Below are positions 51,483 through 61,827 of a stretch of DNA of 64,000 bases, one piece after another. Below the pieces are notes generated by a model. That model worked only from the letters and a program-made list of their open reading frames with translations, searched no databases and was not told where the DNA came from. The DNA is taken from assembly GCF_024204685.1 (NCBI RefSeq), contig NZ_CP100350.1, positions 434,001 to 498,000 of the forward strand, given 5' to 3'. The translations under genes and the position numbers were made by a program. The first letter of the stretch is position 1; each line of letters opens with the position of its first letter. The DNA is from Gilvimarinus sp. DA14. Its GTDB lineage: Bacteria; Pseudomonadota; Gammaproteobacteria; Pseudomonadales; Cellvibrionaceae.

Positions 51483-52388
51483 ATGGGAGTCATCCTTACC
51501 TGTATTGCAATATACATTGGCTGCATAGCCTTCGTTCGCACCCGCAACCGGGTGACTTTTCCGCTCAGCCGACAAATGACTGACTTCTCGACCTTTATGG
51601 TGCCCTTCAATTTGCCCGCCTACGGGTTGAGCAAGGTGCCCACCACCCCCAGGGTCTCCAAAGAGCATTTCCCCGAGTTGCAGGTGATTGAAGAGAATTG
51701 GGAAACCATTCGCGACGAAGCCCTGGCTTTGTATCAAGGCGGTAAAATTACCGCAAAAGATGATTTACCTGCCAGTAGCTTTTATAAAGACAACCGCTGG
51801 ACCAGTTTTTACCTCAAGCTCTACGATCACGAGATTCCCTCAGCGCGCGAGCTGGCGCCTAAGACTATGGAGCTGCTGGATCAGGTTCCGTATTTGAATT
51901 TGGCGTTATTTGCGGTGCTGAACCCGGGTAAAAAACTTAACCAACATCACGATCCCTTCGCTTACACGCTGCGCTACTCCCTAGGATTAAGCACGCCCAA
52001 CAGTGAAAAATGCGGCTTGCAGATTGATGACTTTCACTACCCCTGGCGCGATGGCGACTCGATTATTTTCGATGAAACCTACCTGCACAGCGCCTATAAC
52101 GAAACCGACACCCCGCGGGTGATCTTGATGACGGATATCGACCGCCCGCTCAAGCTTGGCTTTGTGCAAAAGGGCTATTGGTATTTTGGCCGCTTCTTTA
52201 ACAGCCTGTTTATGATTGATAACGTGGACTCATCCCATTCGGGTATTGGCAACAAGCTGGGGCAGGGGTTACTGGGCTACCAGAAGTTTCTCAAATCCAT
52301 CAAAAGCAAAAACCGCACGTTTTATTACACCGCCAAATGGGTGGTGATTGGCGGCTTGTTACTATTGATCGGTAGCAGGCTGGTGTAA
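51483..52388 (+). CDS. lpxO: LpxO-like aspartyl/asparaginyl beta-hydroxylase-family protein
   Basis: A 301-residue Fe(II)/2-oxoglutarate dioxygenase with an N-terminal and a C-terminal hydrophobic helix. The iron ligands fit QHHDPFAYTLRYSLGL (first His), with a second His in DETYLHSAYNET, and the 2-oxoglutarate arginine in TPRVILMTD. Size, two membrane anchors and motifs match LpxO, which 2-hydroxylates lipid A acyl chains. Another beta-hydroxylase substrate is possible. The 3' end overlaps the convergent pabB by 27 nt. Confidence 0.83.
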   Translation: MGVILTCIAIYIGCIAFVRTRNRVTFPLSRQMTDFSTFMVPFNLPAYGLSKVPTTPRVSKEHFPELQVIEENWETIRDEALALYQGGKITAKDDLPASSFYKDNRWTSFYLKLYDHEIPSARELAPKTMELLDQVPYLNLALFAVLNPGKKLNQHHDPFAYTLRYSLGLSTPNSEKCGLQIDDFHYPWRDGDSIIFDETYLHSAYNETDTPRVILMTDIDRPLKLGFVQKGYWYFGRFFNSLFMIDNVDSSHSGIGNKLGQGLLGYQKFLKSIKSKNRTFYYTAKWVVIGGLLLLIGSRLV

Positions 52389-53783
52389 AAAGTTCTCTTC
52401 TAGAGTTCGAATCAGCAGCGCCACCTTGGTGATGCTCTCCTGATATTCGGACTCACAGGTGGAATCGGCAACGATTCCGCCACCTCCCCAGCACAGCAGA
52501 CGTCCCTGGTCGCAGCTGATGGTACGAATGGCAATATTGCTGTCCATAGAGCCGCAGGCACTGATGTAGCTGAGGCTGCCGCAGTAGGGGCCGCGCCTGT
52601 GGCTTTCCAGCGTTTCAATAATCTCCATGGCCCGGACCTTGGGCGCGCCTGTAATGGAGCCGCCGGGAAAAGCGGCGCGCAGCAAATCAATGGCTGATTT
52701 TTCCGGCTTCAGTACGCCTGTAATGGTGCTGACCAAATGGTGCACATTGGCAAAGCTTTGCAGCTCAAACAGCTTGGGTACCTCGACCTGGCGGCAGCAG
52801 CGGCTCAAATCGTTGCGCAGCAGGTCCACGATCATCAAGTTCTCTGCCTGATCCTTCTCGCTTTTACTCAGTGTCGCCGCGCTTTGGGCATCCTGGCTGG
52901 GATCAGCGTGGCGTGCGGCTGTGCCTTTGATGGGAGATGTGGTGGCCACGCGGTTTCTGCAGGCGATAAATCGCTCCGGCGAAAGGCTGAGAATGGCGTT
53001 GTCGCCAAGGCCCATAAACCCGGCAAAAGGTGCCGGTGATGTTTGGCGCAGCTTTAAGTAGCCGAGGTATGGGTCGCCGCCGTAGGGGGCACAAAACCGC
53101 TGCGCATAGTTTATTTGGTAGGTGTCACCCTCAAGGATATGCTTCTGAATGATATCGAATTTTTCAATATAATCTTCTTTGTTAATACAGTTCTCAAAAT
53201 TATTGATTTTAAAGGAGTTTCCGCTCTTTTCTAGAATTGACTTTAAGTCAGGTAAAGGCGAAATAAGTGCCATTATCGATGTGGTATCTACCCCCGGCTG
53301 GGCGACAAGGGCGGCTGTTCGACGCTTATGATCAATCACCAGTGCCCACTGATAAATGCCCATATGCATATCGGCAAGCGTAGAATCGGCCTCGGCGATA
53401 CTGGGAATGGCTTCCAACCTGCGGCCTAGGTCATAGCTCAAATATCCCAGCGCGCCACCACAAAAGGGCAGTACTTCACCGTCGTATACTGCCGCCTCGC
53501 AGGGTGCGGGCATGTGGGTGTCGAGCAAAGAAAAGGGGTCTGCTGCACTTAGGTATTCTTCGCTGTGATTGTCGCGCAGCTGTTGACGCACCAGAGTCTG
53601 ATTCCCCCGAGTTATCAGCTCCAGGCTGGGCGCGGCGGCCAGAATATCGTAGCGCCCCTGTTGGGTATATGGGTGGCAACTGTCCAGCCAAATAGGCAGG
53701 GGGTGATAACGCAGGCAGTTGAGATAGGCCGATGAATCGGCAAGATAGGGAATGGGTGTAACTTGGGGCTGGGGCAAACTCAT
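52362..53783 (-). CDS. pabB: Aminodeoxychorismate synthase component I
   Basis: Uses ammonia from PabA to convert chorismate to aminodeoxychorismate, the substrate of PabC (left end of this window). A 473-residue chorismate-binding protein. The diagnostic PIKGT motif (lysine rather than the alanine seen in anthranilate synthase) distinguishes it from TrpE. Also present: ENLMIVDLLRNDLSR, PGGSITGAPK and SYISACGSMDSNIAIRT. No PabA gene is in view. Confidence 0.94.
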   Translation of the reverse strand: MSLPQPQVTPIPYLADSSAYLNCLRYHPLPIWLDSCHPYTQQGRYDILAAAPSLELITRGNQTLVRQQLRDNHSEEYLSAADPFSLLDTHMPAPCEAAVYDGEVLPFCGGALGYLSYDLGRRLEAIPSIAEADSTLADMHMGIYQWALVIDHKRRTAALVAQPGVDTTSIMALISPLPDLKSILEKSGNSFKINNFENCINKEDYIEKFDIIQKHILEGDTYQINYAQRFCAPYGGDPYLGYLKLRQTSPAPFAGFMGLGDNAILSLSPERFIACRNRVATTSPIKGTAARHADPSQDAQSAATLSKSEKDQAENLMIVDLLRNDLSRCCRQVEVPKLFELQSFANVHHLVSTITGVLKPEKSAIDLLRAAFPGGSITGAPKVRAMEIIETLESHRRGPYCGSLSYISACGSMDSNIAIRTISCDQGRLLCWGGGGIVADSTCESEYQESITKVALLIRTLEENFLHQPATDQ

Positions 53784-53860: not shown

Positions 53861-56800
53861 TTACAGCTCGGTAATGTGCTCCCCGCTCACCTCCGTGGCG
53901 TAGCTGGCCAGCACAGTCAGTACCGCATTTTGTAGCACCGCCGGCGATTGCTGAATCAGTAGGTCGAGATAGCGGCCGCTGGGAGGGCTTTGGTTGCTCT
54001 CATCGGCCCACTGGCGCGCCGCCTCTTCCAATAAACGGCTGAACACCAGTGGCTGTTCAAAGTAGGCGCTCGGGTGGCGCTGGCAGTAAAGAGTGAATGC
54101 CTGCAGAGATTCCACCACAGCGCTTTTGTAATAGCTCGGGTGCAGTGGCTGGGTGAGCTGGTCGATCAGTTGGGCAAAGCTTTCTTCTCCCGGGGTCATT
54201 GAGCTGCGCACCAGCTCGCAATCGATTTTACCGTCGCTGCTGCTATCGCCAATCACCAGGGTTTTGGCGCAGGCCAGACTTTGCCAGATAGCACTGAGAA
54301 ATTTATCGTCAAAGCGGGTAATAAACCCACGCGCCAGACGCCACTCAAACCAGTCGGCATCTACGGCGTGAGCGTTAATGGCGTCGCTGCCGCTTAGCAG
54401 CGCGGGCTGTTCGGCGCCATGGGCAAAACTGTGCTCCACGCCCTGAGAGAAGACTTTGCGCTGCGAGTCGAATACGCGGCGCAAGCGCTTGTACAAATAC
54501 ACCGGCGGCTGGCTGGCCAGCCATTCAATCGGCGCCTCACTCCCGCACTTATCAAAGTGGGAGCAGAGCATCATAAAGTTATGCAGCTGGATTGAACGCA
54601 AGCCCTCGAACAGATAGGGCTGAGTACGCAGCAGAGCGCCCACAGCAATAATAACTTCCTGGGCCAGTGAGCGCTCCAGGGGGTCGTTAAAGACGGCGTC
54701 CAGGCCGTCGAGAATCTCCTGGTTACTTAAGCCGGAGTTAATCATTAGTTCGGCCTCGGCGGTTTCGCCCACGGCTATTTTTAAGTGCCGCGCCGCTAAC
54801 AGCGTCAGGCTGTCGGCCAGATCCTGGTGGCCGTGATCAAGATAGGCAAAGCACAGGCGGCACAGGGCCCATCGATTGGTGTGGCGCGCGTACTGATAAA
54901 TATCCTCTAGCACGTCAATGAGCGTCAGGCCGTCGCCCGCATCCTCTGATAATGGTGCTTCGCCTATCAACTCGGCAAAGCCCAGGCGCAATTGTGCGGC
55001 GCGGCTCTCGTCGCAAGCGAGCTGTTGCAATTGGGCAAAGCGGGGTGCGAGTCGGCTGCGCTCAATGCGCAGCGAATCCGATGGTTTGCTTTGCGTACTT
55101 TTCAGCGGCTCTAAATCAAAGTCCGGTAGCGTTAGTTTTGTTACCCGCGAGGCCCGCACCGCTAAGCTCGCCGAAGCATTGCCCACATGCTCGTGGGTAT
55201 TGCGCAATTGCAGGTCTTTCAGGGTTTGAAAGAATACCGCCGCATTGGGAATTTGGCAGATGCTGGCATTCACCTTGAGCGTAAACACGGCCACTTCGGC
55301 GTCGGTCCAGTGTTTGCGAATATGCGATACCTCGGTAATGAGTAGCTCGCTGAGGAACTCGGCATCGTAAAGTCGGTAATCGAAAGCTTCACTTTGCAGC
55401 CAGGATAAACACAGACAGACTTTGCCGTTAATCCGGTAGGTGTGAGAGGTGGCCAGGCTTTGCAGTCGCCGGCGAGGGCGCCCGCTCAAGCCGAGCGATT
55501 CGTTGGCGCCTACACGGGTGAACGCTTCCATTAAATGCGGTGCGCTCAATACGTTAATGGGTTTTATGTCTTCTAAAGATTCGGCAATAACCCCGTTTTG
55601 CGACAAGGTGGTTTTTACGGCTTCGTTCTCTGCTAATACCACCAAGGCCATTTGCGCCTGGGAAAAGCGTGTTGAGCGTCGGCGAATATGCAGCGGATCG
55701 AGATCGGTGGTGGTGATATAACCTTCATCCAACAGGAGCCCTGTGTAATAAAGACTTTGCGCCCAGACTAGGGGAATGTTTTCGTTGGGCTGGCGCGCCT
55801 GAGAGCGGGGGTTTTTCTTTTCCGCCGCGATCGATTCTTGCGGTAAGTAATACAGCTCGGGAATTAGCCCTATGCCATCTTTACGAACCATCAATGATTC
55901 AATTTTGCGCCGGTAATGATTGGCGGTAGTGTCCAGCTCGTCAAACAATGCGTTGAGGTACAAAAAGCAGTAAAACAGTGGCCATTCTGACTCAATGTGT
56001 TCAAAGGTCGCCAGCTCCGAGTGTTCGTAATACAGGCGTGAGCTCTCTTCAATAGCGGTCTGATGGCCGTCCCACAAAAAACGTTTGCAGCCGTAGTTGC
56101 CGCCGAGCTTGGATAAAATCGTATCGCGGGTTTTGGTTAGTAACTCTTGGCGGCCCACGGCAAAAGCCGGAAAGCCAATCACCGAGAGCAGTGCACTGTC
56201 CACTTCTTTGGACAGAGACTCGCGCGGCAGCAGGGCACCCAGAGTGTTCCGTGCCAGGGATACCGCATCGGGGATCACGTGAATGACCGCGCGGCGCGTG
56301 GCGTTGGGACCAAATAAATTAAGGCCGTCGAGCGCCTGCATGGCCGCTTTAGCCATGCCCACAGAGCTTGCGTTAATTTCCGTCAGGCCGTTATTGATTT
56401 TGTTGCCCCGCTCCCAGATACCGAAGTCGGGTGTGCGATAGGCGCTGGAGATGTAATAAACCAGGTTCTGCACAAAGTCCACTTCGCTACCGGTGCACAC
56501 GATGCGCAGCCCCGAGGCGGACATCTGTGCTAGCAGCAAAAGATAAATGGAGGTGGCGTCTATCTGTAAATGGCCCCAGGCGTCGTCGGCCACTACGGGT
56601 AAACCACTGGCAGTTTCGTATTTTGCATGTAGCGAATCGATCGGGTCCAGGGTGTGCTTAAACTTTTCCACCTTGTCGGCCTGGCGCATCATTGACTGCA
56701 GTAGTCCGCGCATTAACTTTATGCAGGCTTGGTTTAATAAATCCTGGCGGTTGCTTTGCCCGGCGCGCCCCATGGCATTTGCCAGCGCCCAAACGCAGAT

Positions 56801-56962
56801 AATGGAGTAGACATTGTCCCGCACCCAGGCGTCGGTGTAATTGCCGTGGGTGGTAATCGCCGTGCTGGCGGGGAGTAAACCGGTAACCGGATGTTGGCGC
56901 TGGAGAATAACCTGTTTGATTTCCTGGTAAATACGCTCCAGTGTATCGTTTTGCCGCTTCAT
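53861..56962 (-). CDS. GH15-fold protein resembling phosphorylase kinase alpha/beta subunits
   Basis: A 1033-residue protein. The N-terminal two-thirds is a glycoside hydrolase family 15 (alpha/alpha)6 barrel. Stretches recall eukaryotic phosphorylase b kinase regulatory subunits nearly word for word: NYTDAWVRDNVYSI (41-54), KLMRGLLQSMMRQADKVE (82-99), DDAWGHLQIDATS (126-138), DFGIWERG (179-186) and NASSVGMAKAA (197-207). The C-terminus (MTPGEESFAQLID near 922, and RTQPYLF earlier) also follows the PhK alpha/beta order, so similarity is full length. E184 is a candidate catalytic or binding residue. A ribosome site GGGAAGG precedes the ATG. No glycogen genes are near. Enzyme versus glucan-binding scaffold cannot be decided here. 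Confidence 0.8.
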   Translation of the reverse strand: MKRQNDTLERIYQEIKQVILQRQHPVTGLLPASTAITTHGNYTDAWVRDNVYSIICVWALANAMGRAGQSNRQDLLNQACIKLMRGLLQSMMRQADKVEKFKHTLDPIDSLHAKYETASGLPVVADDAWGHLQIDATSIYLLLLAQMSASGLRIVCTGSEVDFVQNLVYYISSAYRTPDFGIWERGNKINNGLTEINASSVGMAKAAMQALDGLNLFGPNATRRAVIHVIPDAVSLARNTLGALLPRESLSKEVDSALLSVIGFPAFAVGRQELLTKTRDTILSKLGGNYGCKRFLWDGHQTAIEESSRLYYEHSELATFEHIESEWPLFYCFLYLNALFDELDTTANHYRRKIESLMVRKDGIGLIPELYYLPQESIAAEKKNPRSQARQPNENIPLVWAQSLYYTGLLLDEGYITTTDLDPLHIRRRSTRFSQAQMALVVLAENEAVKTTLSQNGVIAESLEDIKPINVLSAPHLMEAFTRVGANESLGLSGRPRRRLQSLATSHTYRINGKVCLCLSWLQSEAFDYRLYDAEFLSELLITEVSHIRKHWTDAEVAVFTLKVNASICQIPNAAVFFQTLKDLQLRNTHEHVGNASASLAVRASRVTKLTLPDFDLEPLKSTQSKPSDSLRIERSRLAPRFAQLQQLACDESRAAQLRLGFAELIGEAPLSEDAGDGLTLIDVLEDIYQYARHTNRWALCRLCFAYLDHGHQDLADSLTLLAARHLKIAVGETAEAELMINSGLSNQEILDGLDAVFNDPLERSLAQEVIIAVGALLRTQPYLFEGLRSIQLHNFMMLCSHFDKCGSEAPIEWLASQPPVYLYKRLRRVFDSQRKVFSQGVEHSFAHGAEQPALLSGSDAINAHAVDADWFEWRLARGFITRFDDKFLSAIWQSLACAKTLVIGDSSSDGKIDCELVRSSMTPGEESFAQLIDQLTQPLHPSYYKSAVVESLQAFTLYCQRHPSAYFEQPLVFSRLLEEAARQWADESNQSPPSGRYLDLLIQQSPAVLQNAVLTVLASYATEVSGEHITEL

Positions 56963-57476: not shown

Positions 57477-57505
57477 TTGTTGCGGATTGTAATGCATGTG
57501 ATAAT
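57477..57505 (+). promoter_or_regulatory. Promoter of the TonB-dependent receptor gene
   Basis: TTGTTG (57477-57482), 17 nt, GATAAT (57500-57505), with a TG two bases upstream of the -10 (extended -10). It lies 38 nt before the start codon and overlaps the Fur-box candidate. Confidence 0.6.
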
Positions 57506-57518
57506 AAATATCATTAAT
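57500..57518 (+). promoter_or_regulatory. Candidate Fur box upstream of the TonB receptor
   Basis: GATAATAAATATCATTAAT matches the 19-bp E. coli Fur consensus at 14 positions and covers the -10 region and start site of the receptor promoter, the expected position for iron-dependent repression. Confidence 0.75.
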
Positions 57519-57542
57519 TGTTGCGAGTCACTTGGGGGAAAC

Positions 57543-59864
57543 ATGCTAGTAAAACACGTCGGTCGCAAAGCGACATTTGGCTTGAGCTGCCTGATTGCAG
57601 CATTAGGTGCGCAGGCACAAAGCGATAATCAGCCGCCCAGAGCGGAAGAGTTGGTGGTTACAGGGCAGAAAATCGAGCGCTCGGTACAAGATACCGCCGC
57701 CAGTGTGGCGGTTCTGACCGAGGAGTTTATGGATGACCAGCAGATCGACAGCTTTTACGGGTTGCTCGATCGGGTGCCCAATGTGCACGGTATTCTGGGC
57801 AGTGGTTTCAGCATTCGCGGTATTGATGCCTTTAACGTGTCCGGCGGCGGTAATAGTTATCTGGCCAGTGTTTACGTTGACGGAGCGCCACTGCCGTATC
57901 GTGCGATCCAAAAAGGCGGCTTTTTAACCTGGGATGTTTCTCAGGTAGAGGTGTTGCGTGGTCCCCAATCGACCCTGCAGGGGCGCAATGCGCTCGCCGG
58001 TGCGGTTATTGTGAACACCCAGGACCCGACCTATGAATGGGAGGGAAAATTGCGTTTGGGGGCGGGCGAATATGGTAAACAGCAACTGGCCTTTGCCGGT
58101 GCCGGCGCCTTAATTGACGATGTGTTGGCATTTCGTATCAGTGCCGAGCAGTATGACTTTGACGGTATTAACGACAATACTACCCGGGGTGATCATCCGG
58201 ACTTTAACAACAACAATACCTACCGGGGTAAGTTGTTGTTCGAGCCAATAGAAGATTTCTCAGCGTTGCTAAGCTTCTCGCGCACTGAGACCGAGTACGG
58301 GGTGCGCTGGACCGAGCCCAACCCAGATGGCAGCGATTTTGACCATCGTATCGTAACCTTTAACGACCCTACCTTCGAGAAGAACGATGCCGACATCACC
58401 ACCTTAAAACTGGATTACAGCTTTAGCGAACAGTTGCAGTTGATGTCGATTACCAGCTACTCGGACTCCAAGTACGGCTATGAGTGGGATGGCGACGCCA
58501 GCTCCGAGCCGCTGTCCATTCTGATTGATGATCGCATTGATGAAACCCTGAGTCAGGAGTTCCGTCTGGTGATGGAGTTTGATCGCTTAAGCGGTGTGGT
58601 GGGTGCCTATTATTCAGACCTGGACGTAGTGGATGAAGCCAGTGGTCAGCGTAGCTTAACGCTGCAGGAAACCGGCCTGCCCACGTTATTGGTCACCCCG
58701 CCAGAATACGGCGGTATTGGTCTGGATCAGGCCACCGCTGATATGGTGCTGTCGCTCTACGCGCCCATCGATCCGGTGCGCCTGGGCACCTACTCAAAGC
58801 TGGAACAGGGGGTGGAAACCCAAGCTGTATTCACCGACTTAACCTTCCGCGTAACCGAAAACTGGGACATCTTTGGTGGGCTGCGCTGGGATAAAGAAGA
58901 GCAGCGCAACGCCAGCGATACTCTGTACACCATCGACAACGAAGACTTACTGCCCAATCCGGCTGACTACGCTGCCAATGCGCAGCTGGCCATGTTGATT
59001 ACCGGTATTAACGCGCAGTTGTATCAAATGGTTGACGATGCTTCTGGAACAGAGCCACCCGCAGATGCCAGCTTCGATGAGTGGTTACCAAAGCTCGGGA
59101 CCACCTATCGTTTTAGCGACGATGTCAGCCTGAGTTTCACCTACCAGGAGGGTTACCGCTCTGGTGGCGTAGGCACCAATGTCGCGCAGGGTTCTATTTT
59201 TACCTACCAGCCGGAGTTTACCGACAACTATGAGCTGGCTTTGCGTACGGCCTGGTTAGACGGTGCCCTGACGGCCAACGCCAACCTGTTTTACATTGAT
59301 TGGCAAGATCAGCAAATAGCGGTGCAGTTGTCAGGCAACGCCTACGACACGGAAACTCAAAACGCCGGCAGCTCTACCGTAGAGGGTTTTGAGCTGGAGC
59401 TTAATTACATCGCGACCGACACGCTGCAGGTGTTTGGTGGCTTGGGTTATTCGCGAACCGAGTTTGACGAATTTACCATTGTGCAGCCTACAGCGACCTA
59501 TGACTTGTCTGGCCGGGCTTTTCCTCGCGCGCCCGAGTGGACCGCAAATATTGGTGCCAGTTATCACTCGCCAAGTGGTCTGTTTGCCAGCATAAATGCC
59601 AATTATGCCGACAGCTCTATCGTTGCAGTTAATCCTTACGCAAATGGTTTAAGCGAGGGTGACGAAGGTTTTGACCCAAAAAATGATCAGCGCACCTTGG
59701 TCAACGCAAAGCTTGGCTACGAGTGGGATCAGCTGGCGGTGTACGCCACTGTCACCAATCTGTTTGATGAAGAGTATGTGGAGTTGGCAAGTGTAAGCCA
59801 GCCGCCCTCGGTTACCCTGGGTGCGCCGCGTCAGTTTGGTGTGACTCTGGATTATCGTTTTTAA
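57543..59864 (+). CDS. TonB-dependent outer membrane receptor, probably iron-complex uptake
   Basis: The start is the ATG at 57543 (signal peptide ending ALGAQAQS), preceded by GGGGGAA; the longer open frame upstream begins in the -35 box. The 773-residue mature-type receptor has a TonB-box-like ELVVTGQ, a plug domain (VLRGPQSTLQGRNALAGAVIVNT), a 22-strand-type barrel and the C-terminal aromatic FGVTLDYRF. The Fur box and the convergent PepSY operon point to ferric-siderophore or haem uptake; the substrate is not predictable. Its texture is like the large iron-complex receptor group common in marine gammaproteobacteria. Confidence 0.9.
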   Translation: MLVKHVGRKATFGLSCLIAALGAQAQSDNQPPRAEELVVTGQKIERSVQDTAASVAVLTEEFMDDQQIDSFYGLLDRVPNVHGILGSGFSIRGIDAFNVSGGGNSYLASVYVDGAPLPYRAIQKGGFLTWDVSQVEVLRGPQSTLQGRNALAGAVIVNTQDPTYEWEGKLRLGAGEYGKQQLAFAGAGALIDDVLAFRISAEQYDFDGINDNTTRGDHPDFNNNNTYRGKLLFEPIEDFSALLSFSRTETEYGVRWTEPNPDGSDFDHRIVTFNDPTFEKNDADITTLKLDYSFSEQLQLMSITSYSDSKYGYEWDGDASSEPLSILIDDRIDETLSQEFRLVMEFDRLSGVVGAYYSDLDVVDEASGQRSLTLQETGLPTLLVTPPEYGGIGLDQATADMVLSLYAPIDPVRLGTYSKLEQGVETQAVFTDLTFRVTENWDIFGGLRWDKEEQRNASDTLYTIDNEDLLPNPADYAANAQLAMLITGINAQLYQMVDDASGTEPPADASFDEWLPKLGTTYRFSDDVSLSFTYQEGYRSGGVGTNVAQGSIFTYQPEFTDNYELALRTAWLDGALTANANLFYIDWQDQQIAVQLSGNAYDTETQNAGSSTVEGFELELNYIATDTLQVFGGLGYSRTEFDEFTIVQPTATYDLSGRAFPRAPEWTANIGASYHSPSGLFASINANYADSSIVAVNPYANGLSEGDEGFDPKNDQRTLVNAKLGYEWDQLAVYATVTNLFDEEYVELASVSQPPSVTLGAPRQFGVTLDYRF

Positions 59865-59926: not shown

Positions 59927-60181
59927 TCAATGCTCAGAGTTCGTCAGACCTCTGACAATTACATAAGCGCAACCGAAGGCGGACACTGCACCGAGTGCAA
60001 TAAAAATCGCCCGCGCCCAACCAAAGCCTGGTACCAGGGCGCAAATGCTGATTGCCAAGGCAGCTAGGGCAATAAGATTCAAAGCCGGTCGGGGTACCCT
60101 GGCTGGTGCTCGCCCCCGGTGCCAAAGCAATACCACGGCCAAACTCGCTACCAGCGAGACAATAATTAACAGACCACTCAT
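59927..60181 (-). CDS. Small hydrophobic protein of the PepSY iron operon (DUF3325-like)
   Basis: The ATG at 60181 was chosen because it overlaps the PepSY stop (ATGA), and the 84 residues then start in a helix (MSGLLIIVSLVASLAVVLLW); the longer open frame runs through PepSY coding sequence. Three membrane helices are predicted. Size, position after a PepSY gene and Fur context match DUF3325-type proteins, which accompany siderophore receptor loci. No function is established. Confidence 0.7.
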   Translation of the reverse strand: MSGLLIIVSLVASLAVVLLWHRGRAPARVPRPALNLIALAALAISICALVPGFGWARAIFIALGAVSAFGCAYVIVRGLTNSEH

Positions 60182-61827
60182 TGGGCTTCCTCCCATTGAT
60201 AGCGCTCGCCGGCCACGTTTGAGGGGCGGTCGAAACGACCGCTTACGGGACGGCTGGCTGGGAGTTTGCGCGCCGTCCAAAGACACAGCAGCCCGACCGC
60301 CACTAGAGTGATGTCCACGCAGGCTGTGACGGTTTTACCATTCATTAAAGCTAGGGGCAGGGCGTCGCCGGTGACAATGCCGTTAAGTACCGGAATGCCC
60401 AGCGCCAGTAAACCGCAAAGGCCAAATAATTGTTTAATGCTCTTATAAGAGTTGCCGCGCACCAGTGCGTAAAGCAACACCGCAAGCCAACTGGTAAAAA
60501 AGATTACTCCCAGCCAGTAGTTCATATGGGTGGGGGCCACTGAGAGGAGCAATTGGCCATAAAACAGCGCCAGACTTGCTACCACTAACCCCATACACGC
60601 GCCTGCGGTAAAGCGGCTGATACGTTGATAGGCGGCAACCGATAAACTGCCTTCGGGGCCGTAGGCCCGCCTTTCTATCCAAATCATCATGCCGGTTACT
60701 GCTACCAGAGCGGTGCCCACTCCCAGCAGCCCCCAAATAACTTTCACCAACAGGCCGCCGAAGTCACCAAAGTGCAGTGGGTACATCGCGTCCAGCAGTG
60801 TGCCGGTAACGCTTTGATGGCGACCAAAGGTGCTGTACTGGGCTAATGGCTCACCGGTTACCGCGTTTAGCTCGTGGGTAACAAACGCTGATAACGTATT
60901 GCCGCCTGCAGTGCTGATTGCTATCACCGCGCCACTGTCGCCCCAGCCATAAACGGTTGAATCGCGAATGATAAGTTGCGGATGCTGGCGGGAAAATTCT
61001 GTCAGCACCTGGCCCACCTGCGGCTCGGCAGGCAACCCTGTGAGTGCGGGCTGGGTTTCCGGTAAAAAAGTTTCCACCAGCTTTTCTTGATCGCCGGCAA
61101 AGCTGACAAAAGCCGCCGCCGGCACCAACAATACCAGTACTAAACCCAAAAACGCGCCGGTAAAACCGATCACCCCGTGGAACAGCAATCCCCATACGCC
61201 CAGTACTTTATGGGTGTCGGTAAACAGCAGGCGCAAACTGCGAAAGGGGCGAAAACTGAATAAGTCTTTGAGAATTTTGCGGTGAATAAGCACCCCGGTT
61301 ACTACCGAGGCGAACAGGGTCAAGCCGAGTAAGCCAGTTAGCACCAAACCAATGGGATTGCCCAGGTGTAAGTCAGCATGGAAGGTGGTCATAAACCTGG
61401 CCATGTCACCGGGAAACTGGGCAAACCACTCGGCGCTGCTTCCCTCGAAAGTGTCTTCCAGGTCGAGGGTTTGCGGGTGATGACTGAATACCTGTACCCG
61501 ATGTTCATGGCCACCGCTGGGTGTTTCAATTTCTTTTTCAAAGCCAAAGTAAAGTTTGGTGGCGCTGCTGTCGCCGGGCAGGGTGATACGCACATGCTCC
61601 AGGTACGACGGATCTACCTGCTTTACGTGTTGGCGCAGTAAGTAATCGATACTGGTAAAGTCGTGCTCGATGTCGCCGCGTATTTCCGGGTGCGACCAGA
61701 TTTTTAACTCCGGGTGCCCAAACACGGACAATGCCCCGGTAAAAGCAACAATAAACAGCAAAATGCCGGTGACAACGCCCACCCAGCTGTGCACGATATA
61801 GAATTTTTTGGTGGTATCTCTTTGCAT
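60178..61827 (-). CDS. PepSY-associated transmembrane protein, putative ferric-siderophore reductase type
   Basis: A 549-residue inner membrane protein with a PepSY_TM layout. The first helix HSWVGVVTGILLFIVAFTG, a periplasmic domain, GLVLTGLLGLTLFASVVTGVLIH, then HKVLGVWGLLFHGVIGFTGAFLG and further helices near the C-terminus. Conserved histidines in these helices fit haem coordination, as proposed for proteins that reduce siderophore iron. It is the middle gene of a three-gene minus-strand operon (3 nt after the DUF3649-like gene, 4-nt overlap with the next). Confidence 0.85.
   Translation of the reverse strand: MQRDTTKKFYIVHSWVGVVTGILLFIVAFTGALSVFGHPELKIWSHPEIRGDIEHDFTSIDYLLRQHVKQVDPSYLEHVRITLPGDSSATKLYFGFEKEIETPSGGHEHRVQVFSHHPQTLDLEDTFEGSSAEWFAQFPGDMARFMTTFHADLHLGNPIGLVLTGLLGLTLFASVVTGVLIHRKILKDLFSFRPFRSLRLLFTDTHKVLGVWGLLFHGVIGFTGAFLGLVLVLLVPAAAFVSFAGDQEKLVETFLPETQPALTGLPAEPQVGQVLTEFSRQHPQLIIRDSTVYGWGDSGAVIAISTAGGNTLSAFVTHELNAVTGEPLAQYSTFGRHQSVTGTLLDAMYPLHFGDFGGLLVKVIWGLLGVGTALVAVTGMMIWIERRAYGPEGSLSVAAYQRISRFTAGACMGLVVASLALFYGQLLLSVAPTHMNYWLGVIFFTSWLAVLLYALVRGNSYKSIKQLFGLCGLLALGIPVLNGIVTGDALPLALMNGKTVTACVDITLVAVGLLCLWTARKLPASRPVSGRFDRPSNVAGERYQWEEAQ

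Follow-up and report, generated by a model that had tools for sequence, protein, structure and literature searches.

What does a full-length homologue of the regulatory subunits of animal phosphorylase kinase (PhK) do in a bacterium in whose genome no glycogen phosphorylase is found? The question is raised by a gene of Gilvimarinus sp. DA14, located in a stretch of 64,000 nucleotides (NCBI RefSeq assembly GCF_024204685.1, contig NZ_CP100350.1, positions 434,001 to 498,000; hereafter the window, to which all coordinates refer). Its product, P0001, is homologous to human PhK alpha and beta along its length. On balance, we favour the reading that P0001 is an intracellular exo-glucosidase of the GH15 (glycoside hydrolase family 15) type, which frees glucose from glycogen and can replace the phosphorylase. 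The role of the glucoamylase-like domains of PhK is an open question, and a stand-alone bacterial homologue in organisms that lack the phosphorylase makes this question testable. If the bacterial proteins are hydrolases, many bacteria would break glycogen down by a route that has gone unrecognised, and it would become possible to trace how a classical animal signalling enzyme originated.

The GH15 domains of PhK were reportedly first described by Pallen in 2003. Among the matches listed in our literature search, whose coverage excluded most subscription journals, no paper dealt with the function of any bacterial PhK alpha/beta homologue. The "glycogen phosphorylase kinase" of a 2019 Synechococcus abstract was set aside, as the text there means glycogen phosphorylase (glgP) and provides no evidence for the PhK alpha/beta family.

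A full-length homologue of PhK alpha and beta

The initial annotation, made from the sequence alone, had placed a gene coding 1033 residues at 53861..56962 and described it as a full-length PhK alpha/beta homologue. It also proposed to compare its structure with PhK, to inspect the GH15 catalytic glutamates, and to map the phyletic spread of the family and its co-occurrence with glycogen phosphorylase; the results of all four are given below. The coordinates are right, and the strand, which had not been given, is minus. The features of the gene are:

53861..56962, minus strand: PhK alpha/beta homologue gene (P0001), from open reading frame, translation, Pfam, PDB matches, model and Foldseek
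55673..56962, minus strand: GH15-like barrel (D1 of PhK alpha), residues 1-430; the domain edge is approximate, and the PF00723 match starts at residue 8
56411..56413, minus strand: codon of E184, equivalent by alignment to human PhK alpha Glu185, GH15 catalytic glutamate
55856..55858, minus strand: codon of E369, equivalent by alignment to human PhK alpha Glu371, second catalytic glutamate; K in human beta
53993..54535, minus strand: KPBB_C (PhK alpha/beta C-terminal domain), residues 810-990, from PF19292 and from the profile, which also matches human alpha and beta in their C-terminal parts

The reading frame starts with ATG and has no internal stop, and on the plus strand within the gene only two frames reach at least 100 residues (103 and 108). 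The segments by which the family had been recognised are present in the expected order: DAWVRDN at residue 44, DDAWGHLQ (WGHLQ at 129), IWERG at 182, NASSVGMAKAA at 197, RTQPYLF (RTQP at 779) and MTPGE at 922.

Pfam identified Glyco_hydro_15 (PF00723, E 3.9e-70) and KPBB_C (PF19292, E 2.1e-24) in P0001; as these are existing families, the kind of protein is already known to databases. In a single-sequence search of the PDB, human PhK alpha (1e-153) and beta (2e-122) were the only matches at E<=0.01. A profile was then built from an alignment (A1) of 54 sequences, the window protein and 53 relatives that are 36-88% identical to it. This profile matched human alpha with 1014 bits, over residues 6-620, 735-971 and 1039-1172, and human beta with 853 bits, over 46-920 and 919-1075; the sole extra match at E<=1 was 2db0, a hypothetical protein (E 0.088), which we take as chance. 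The AlphaFold model of P0001 has a mean pLDDT (predicted local distance difference test) of 82.1 and a pTM (predicted template modelling score) of 0.84, and Foldseek aligned it to PhK alpha and beta with TM-scores of 0.79-0.87 over 1056-1090 columns. The next best matches were two Aspergillus glucoamylases (1dog and 3eqa; E 5e-4 and 8e-4), over 508-516 columns and with TM-scores by target of 0.43-0.46.

Two findings had been named in the initial annotation as contrary to its claim: a likeness limited to the barrel, and ordinary glucoamylases as the closest relatives. The first was rejected, since sequence and fold both relate the C-terminal half to alpha and beta. The second was rejected as well, since no ordinary GH15 enzyme of the PDB was matched in sequence at E<=1, even by the 54-sequence profile. 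The claim of full-length homology is thus fully supported. P0001 has in common with human PhK alpha and beta (PDB 8jfk, 8jfl and 8z5r) the whole-chain architecture of GH15 barrel and KPBB_C. With the GH15 glucoamylases it shares the barrel fold, PF00723 and, via the human alpha alignment, both catalytic glutamates; unlike them, it has about 600 extra residues of the PhK type.

The family is neither unique to this genome nor stray in it, as shown by the spread of KPBB_C across sampled genomes. Above the cut-off, the domain was found in 8/398 genomes of the window's phylum and 10/145 of its order (the window's own counted in both), and in 45/194 Cyanobacteriota (counting the known carrier used as centre); among 14 control genomes, it was present in Synechococcus elongatus only. 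Six peptide patterns run against one contig collection retrieved 379 stretches encoding a relative, and the 79 loci kept span Cellvibrionaceae, Hahella, Marinomonas, Colwellia, Catenovulum, Paraglaciecola, Gynuella, Methylococcaceae and many cyanobacteria. P0001 is thus one of a set of uncharacterised GH15/KPBB_C proteins from Cyanobacteriota and Gammaproteobacteria. The gene is present in five named Gilvimarinus loci, and the nearest named relative of P0001 is a Gilvimarinus chinensis protein (88% identical). In the genome of L009 (G368), one TAA lies inside the reported KPBB_C match.

Residues of the putative active site are invariant among the bacterial proteins

Glu185 and Glu371 of human PhK alpha have been named as catalytic (PMC10978961). 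They align with E184 and E369 of P0001, and both glutamates are invariant in 54/54 bacterial sequences. R48, D49, W129, W183, R185 and W400 are likewise invariant in all 54, and are also kept in human alpha, so that P0001 shares with human alpha the catalytic pair and these six further barrel residues. In human beta the six are Q, D, Y, W, R and W, with E at 184 and K at 369, so that it departs from the bacterial residues at R48, W129 and E369. Conservation is by far the highest in the barrel: residues 1-430 hold 130 invariant positions, whereas 680-850 have 5 and 870-1000 have 8. The invariant pocket points to selection acting on the barrel; by itself, it is no proof of catalysis.

The glycogen genes of the window genome lack a phosphorylase

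The window genome consists of one contig of 3.96 Mb, with a completeness score of 100%. It carries glgA (glycogen synthase), glgB (branching enzyme) and glgC (ADP-glucose pyrophosphorylase); the glg cluster, which also has a GH57 enzyme and a 4-alpha-glucanotransferase, starts about 92 kb from the P0001 gene. No match to glycogen phosphorylase (PF00343, GT35) was found in this genome, the control search having matched in 12/14 genomes. Because PF00343 is missing, the classical action of PhK on phosphorylase is excluded in this organism.

It is very improbable that P0001 is, as in animals, a true regulatory subunit of a protein kinase. The window genome does have six Pkinase-domain matches, and in 3/87 of the loci described below the homologue has a DUF4032 gene close by, whose product gives weak kinase-like matches. 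However, the nearest of the six is about 83 kb from the P0001 gene and none falls within the window, which bears out the earlier remark that no kinase gene is nearby. Phosphorylase kinase, a complex that includes a gamma kinase subunit and calmodulin, has its glycogen phosphorylase target in the same cell, whereas the window genome has no phosphorylase. The protein itself differs from the animal subunits on two counts: animal-type PhK carries a C-terminal CaaX farnesylation motif (PMC10978961), while P0001 ends in EHITEL and has no CaaX, and the bacterial profile leaves residues 621-734 and 972-1038 of human alpha unaligned.

Some relatives are encoded within glycogen or glucokinase gene clusters

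Gene neighbourhoods were surveyed by tblastn with glycogen and glucose reference proteins in 87 loci, covering up to 10 kb on each side, and neighbour names were confirmed by Pfam in representatives. L102 was omitted as a copy of L064; other duplicates are possible among the 87. Glycogen genes, or glucokinase and Entner-Doudoroff genes, were linked to the homologue in 35/87 loci, representing 6/11 lineage groups; these bacterial relatives differ from PhK alpha and beta in occupying glycogen or glucokinase gene clusters. The arrangement was most regular in Marinomonas/Maribrevibacterium, where glgB-glgX lies directly downstream of the homologue in 25/25 loci. In both Hahella loci, glgB-glgX-pgm stands near it together with glgC and glgA, and in G285 glgB-glgX-malQ is found upstream. 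One of three Cellvibrio loci (L025) has glgA-glgB opposite glgC-GH57-malQ, followed by the homologue, which amounts to the window genome's own glycogen cluster with the PhK homologue gene added. Glucokinase is near the homologue in 6/87 loci: directly downstream in 3/3 Methylococcaceae loci, and upstream, with KDPG aldolase (glk and eda), in 3/3 Gynuella/g252 loci, two of which also have zwf and edd and the third malQ. A glgP gene was found within 10 kb of the homologue in 0/87 loci.

Two further observations were made in these loci. The DUF4032 gene lies one to three genes from the homologue, in Gynuella/g252 only (L064:14647-15882, L101:11366-12646 and L103:3527-4807), and the weak kinase-like matches of its product (Kdo/APH) were obtained by Pfam with the L101 copy. 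The two Hahella loci (L019 and L020, from two species) carry glgB, glgX, glgC and glgA, in contrast to the listing of Hahella chejuensis without any glg genes in a 2015 survey (PMC4301808).

Carriers have glycogen synthase and often lack phosphorylase

Glycogen phosphorylase was searched for in the genomes of 49 of the 79 named loci and in 8 further genomes, giving 55 distinct carriers (G186 is the genome of L011 and G368 that of L028, each counted once; further duplicates are possible). Glycogen synthase was present in 55/56 carrier genomes searched, or 54/55 without one duplicate. As for the phosphorylase, 30 of the 55 have a full-length glgP, 8 a divergent GT35 match only and 17 none. Each of the 6 distinct Gilvimarinus genomes in the search falls into the last group, as do 8 named Marinomonas.

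Carriers and non-carriers were compared among the 145 genomes of the window's order, where GT5 matches of only about 20-30 bits, seen in six genomes, did not qualify a genome as glgA-positive and divergent GT35 matches were scored as glgP present. Here glgA was found in 10/10 carriers versus 37/135 other genomes (Fisher, 6e-6, kinship ignored). Among the glgA-positive genomes, glgP was present in 3/10 carriers versus 34/37 non-carriers (p 1.9e-4, kinship ignored). All 8 glgA-positive genomes of at least 90% completeness that lack glgP have a GH15 gene, which is the PhK homologue in 7 and ordinary ones in the eighth (G046), compared with 7/37 of the genomes having both glgA and glgP (p 3e-5, kinship ignored). 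Two less complete glgA-positive genomes without glgP (83% and 75%) have neither GH15 type, and p becomes 6e-4 when they are kept in. In 5 of the 7 carriers of the order without glgP, the PhK homologue is the sole GH15.

Proposed function and its alternatives

From the homology, the conserved residues, the gene neighbourhoods and the presence and absence of genes, we infer how P0001 may act, on which substrate, where in the cell, and what its C-terminal domains may contribute. No signal peptide was seen on inspection by eye, and P0001 is therefore taken as cytosolic. The barrel, with its E184 and E369 pair, would remove glucose from glycogen ends, or alternatively from the dextrins left by the debranching enzyme, GH57 and 4-alpha-glucanotransferase. 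The freed glucose would re-enter metabolism through glucokinase, which in some relatives would feed it directly to the Entner-Doudoroff pathway. The PhK homologue may fill the place of the missing glycogen phosphorylase in several lineages, Gilvimarinus among them, and elsewhere it may work beside this enzyme. GlgP (GT35), whose metabolic place P0001 is proposed to take, belongs to an unrelated family and acts by phosphorolysis, as opposed to the hydrolysis proposed here. In animals, D2-D5 of PhK alpha and beta hold the kinase and the complex together; in P0001, the corresponding domains might serve assembly or substrate control. Glycogen breakdown by GH15 has a precedent, since a GH15 glucoamylase of Sulfolobus has been assigned a part in it (PMC11046441), and a PhK-type protein doing so would be new. 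The initial annotation had offered three functions, a glucan sensor, a real glucosidase or a regulator of glycogen metabolism. The glucosidase is the best supported, by the glutamates (54/54), the linked loci (35/87) and the frequent absence of glgP; in the window genome, the lack of any PF00343 match excludes a role in regulating glycogen phosphorylase.

Several points weigh against the exo-glucosidase. The main doubt comes from the silent site of human alpha: the 2024 PhK structure paper describes it as apparently intact yet inactive, neither the PhK holoenzyme nor the alpha-gamma-delta subcomplex having acted as a glucoamylase on maltose, isomaltose or glycogen, and asks for further study (PMC10978961). 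In our model, the catalytic loop 183-190, which contains E184, is of low confidence; like loops 250-259 and 291-300, it has a pLDDT below 50, and these loops, in which some of the best conserved residues are found, may become ordered only upon sugar or partner binding. No glycogen or glucose gene was linked in 52/87 loci within the stretch covered: 5/5 Gilvimarinus (where pabB follows), 10/10 other Cellvibrionaceae-like, 2/3 Cellvibrio, 6/6 Colwellia/Catenovulum, 4/4 Paraglaciecola-like and 25/25 cyanobacterial loci; in some of them the absence means little because the stretches are short. Replacement of the phosphorylase is not general, since 30/55 carriers have a full-length glgP. The p-values given above are indications, not proof, because they ignore kinship: the ten carriers of the order represent five genera, and the seven without glgP three. 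Finally, P0001 is not the only GH15-type protein of the window genome: a search that covered this type only retrieved two other genes.

Its main rival is a glucan sensor or scaffold without catalytic activity, whose pocket would bind glycogen ends or free sugars and whose C-terminal domains would signal to glycogen enzymes, for example GlgB, GlgX or GlgC. We regard it as a serious possibility, if a distinctly less probable one than the exo-glucosidase. Human alpha, with the same two glutamates and no detectable activity (PMC10978961), sets an example for it; the full alpha/beta architecture, beyond the needs of a simple hydrolase, has been retained, and the glgB-glgX clusters would fit a regulator equally. 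However, invariance of both glutamates in 54/54 sequences is seemingly more than binding alone would need, the glucokinase genes near 6/87 loci point to free glucose as a product, and the link with missing glgP points to replacement of an enzyme.

The two other GH15 genes led us to give up the idea that P0001 is the sole candidate for glycogen hydrolysis in the window genome. By hhalign, the match of P0001 to these two single GH15 proteins was weak: one aligned around the W-E motif only and the other nowhere. The 598-residue GH15 gene (in L114:4039-8028, C1 at about 1640 kb) is flanked, by eye, by a trehalose-phosphatase-like gene on one side and a trehalose-phosphate-synthase-like gene on the other and overlaps both, and its product is possibly a trehalase. 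The 798-residue one (in L115:6453-12600, C1 at about 2880 kb) has a lipoprotein-like start, and its neighbours, again by eye, are a sugar transporter and two GH13-like genes; its locus perhaps serves external maltodextrins. Each would thus have an explanation of its own, and either may still take part in glycogen breakdown.

These genes also bear on whether P0001 might be catalytically active in the manner of GH15 but on another substrate, such as imported-starch dextrins, isomalto-oligosaccharides or trehalose, or in another reaction, such as glucosyl transfer. GH15-type proteins include trehalases, and in NCBIfam P0001 has a weak match to a trehalase (E 0.016), which scores 13.9 bits where the cut-off is 820; a dextran dextrinase is also among them (PMC12446779). 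Yet the glycogen synthase of 55/56 carriers and the links with glycogen genes speak for glycogen, and in the window genome the trehalose and maltodextrin-like loci, as judged by eye from their neighbours, each have a GH15 of their own; we consider this alternative improbable.

Relationship to the animal subunits

A tree was computed from 42 of the 54 aligned bacterial sequences and two human rows; it is unrooted and contains two eukaryotic sequences only. The window's clade, to which Cellvibrionaceae, Marinomonas, Hahella and Colwellia belong, is bacterial (support 100/99). Across a branch supported at 96/99, human alpha and beta group with cyanobacteria, Methylococcaceae and the Paraglaciecola group. 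A transfer from animals to Gilvimarinus is therefore unsupported. In D1-D2, the identity of human alpha reaches 54.8% with cyanobacterial proteins and amounts to 42.3% with P0001 and 42.5% with human beta. The human branches are long and meet, and their pairing is weakly supported (45/73). The unrooted tree agrees with an origin of animal PhK alpha and beta from the bacterial family, without showing the direction. It is conceivable, if rather doubtful, that the animal subunits descend from a glycogen-hydrolysing bacterial alternative to phosphorylase, the silent pocket of human alpha being a relic; if so, the regulator of phosphorylase would have started as its substitute.

Genes adjacent to the homologue

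Directly downstream of the P0001 gene, after a gap of 77 bases, lies one further feature:

52362..53783, minus strand: pabB-like gene (chorismate-binding enzyme), identified by Pfam

This neighbour is kept in 5/5 other Gilvimarinus loci and is probably functionally unrelated to the PhK homologue. Beyond the start of the P0001 gene stand a TonB-dependent receptor gene (57477-59864, by Pfam) and a PepSY-like membrane gene (60178-61827, by eye), which probably serve the uptake of iron or another ligand and have no connection with the homologue.

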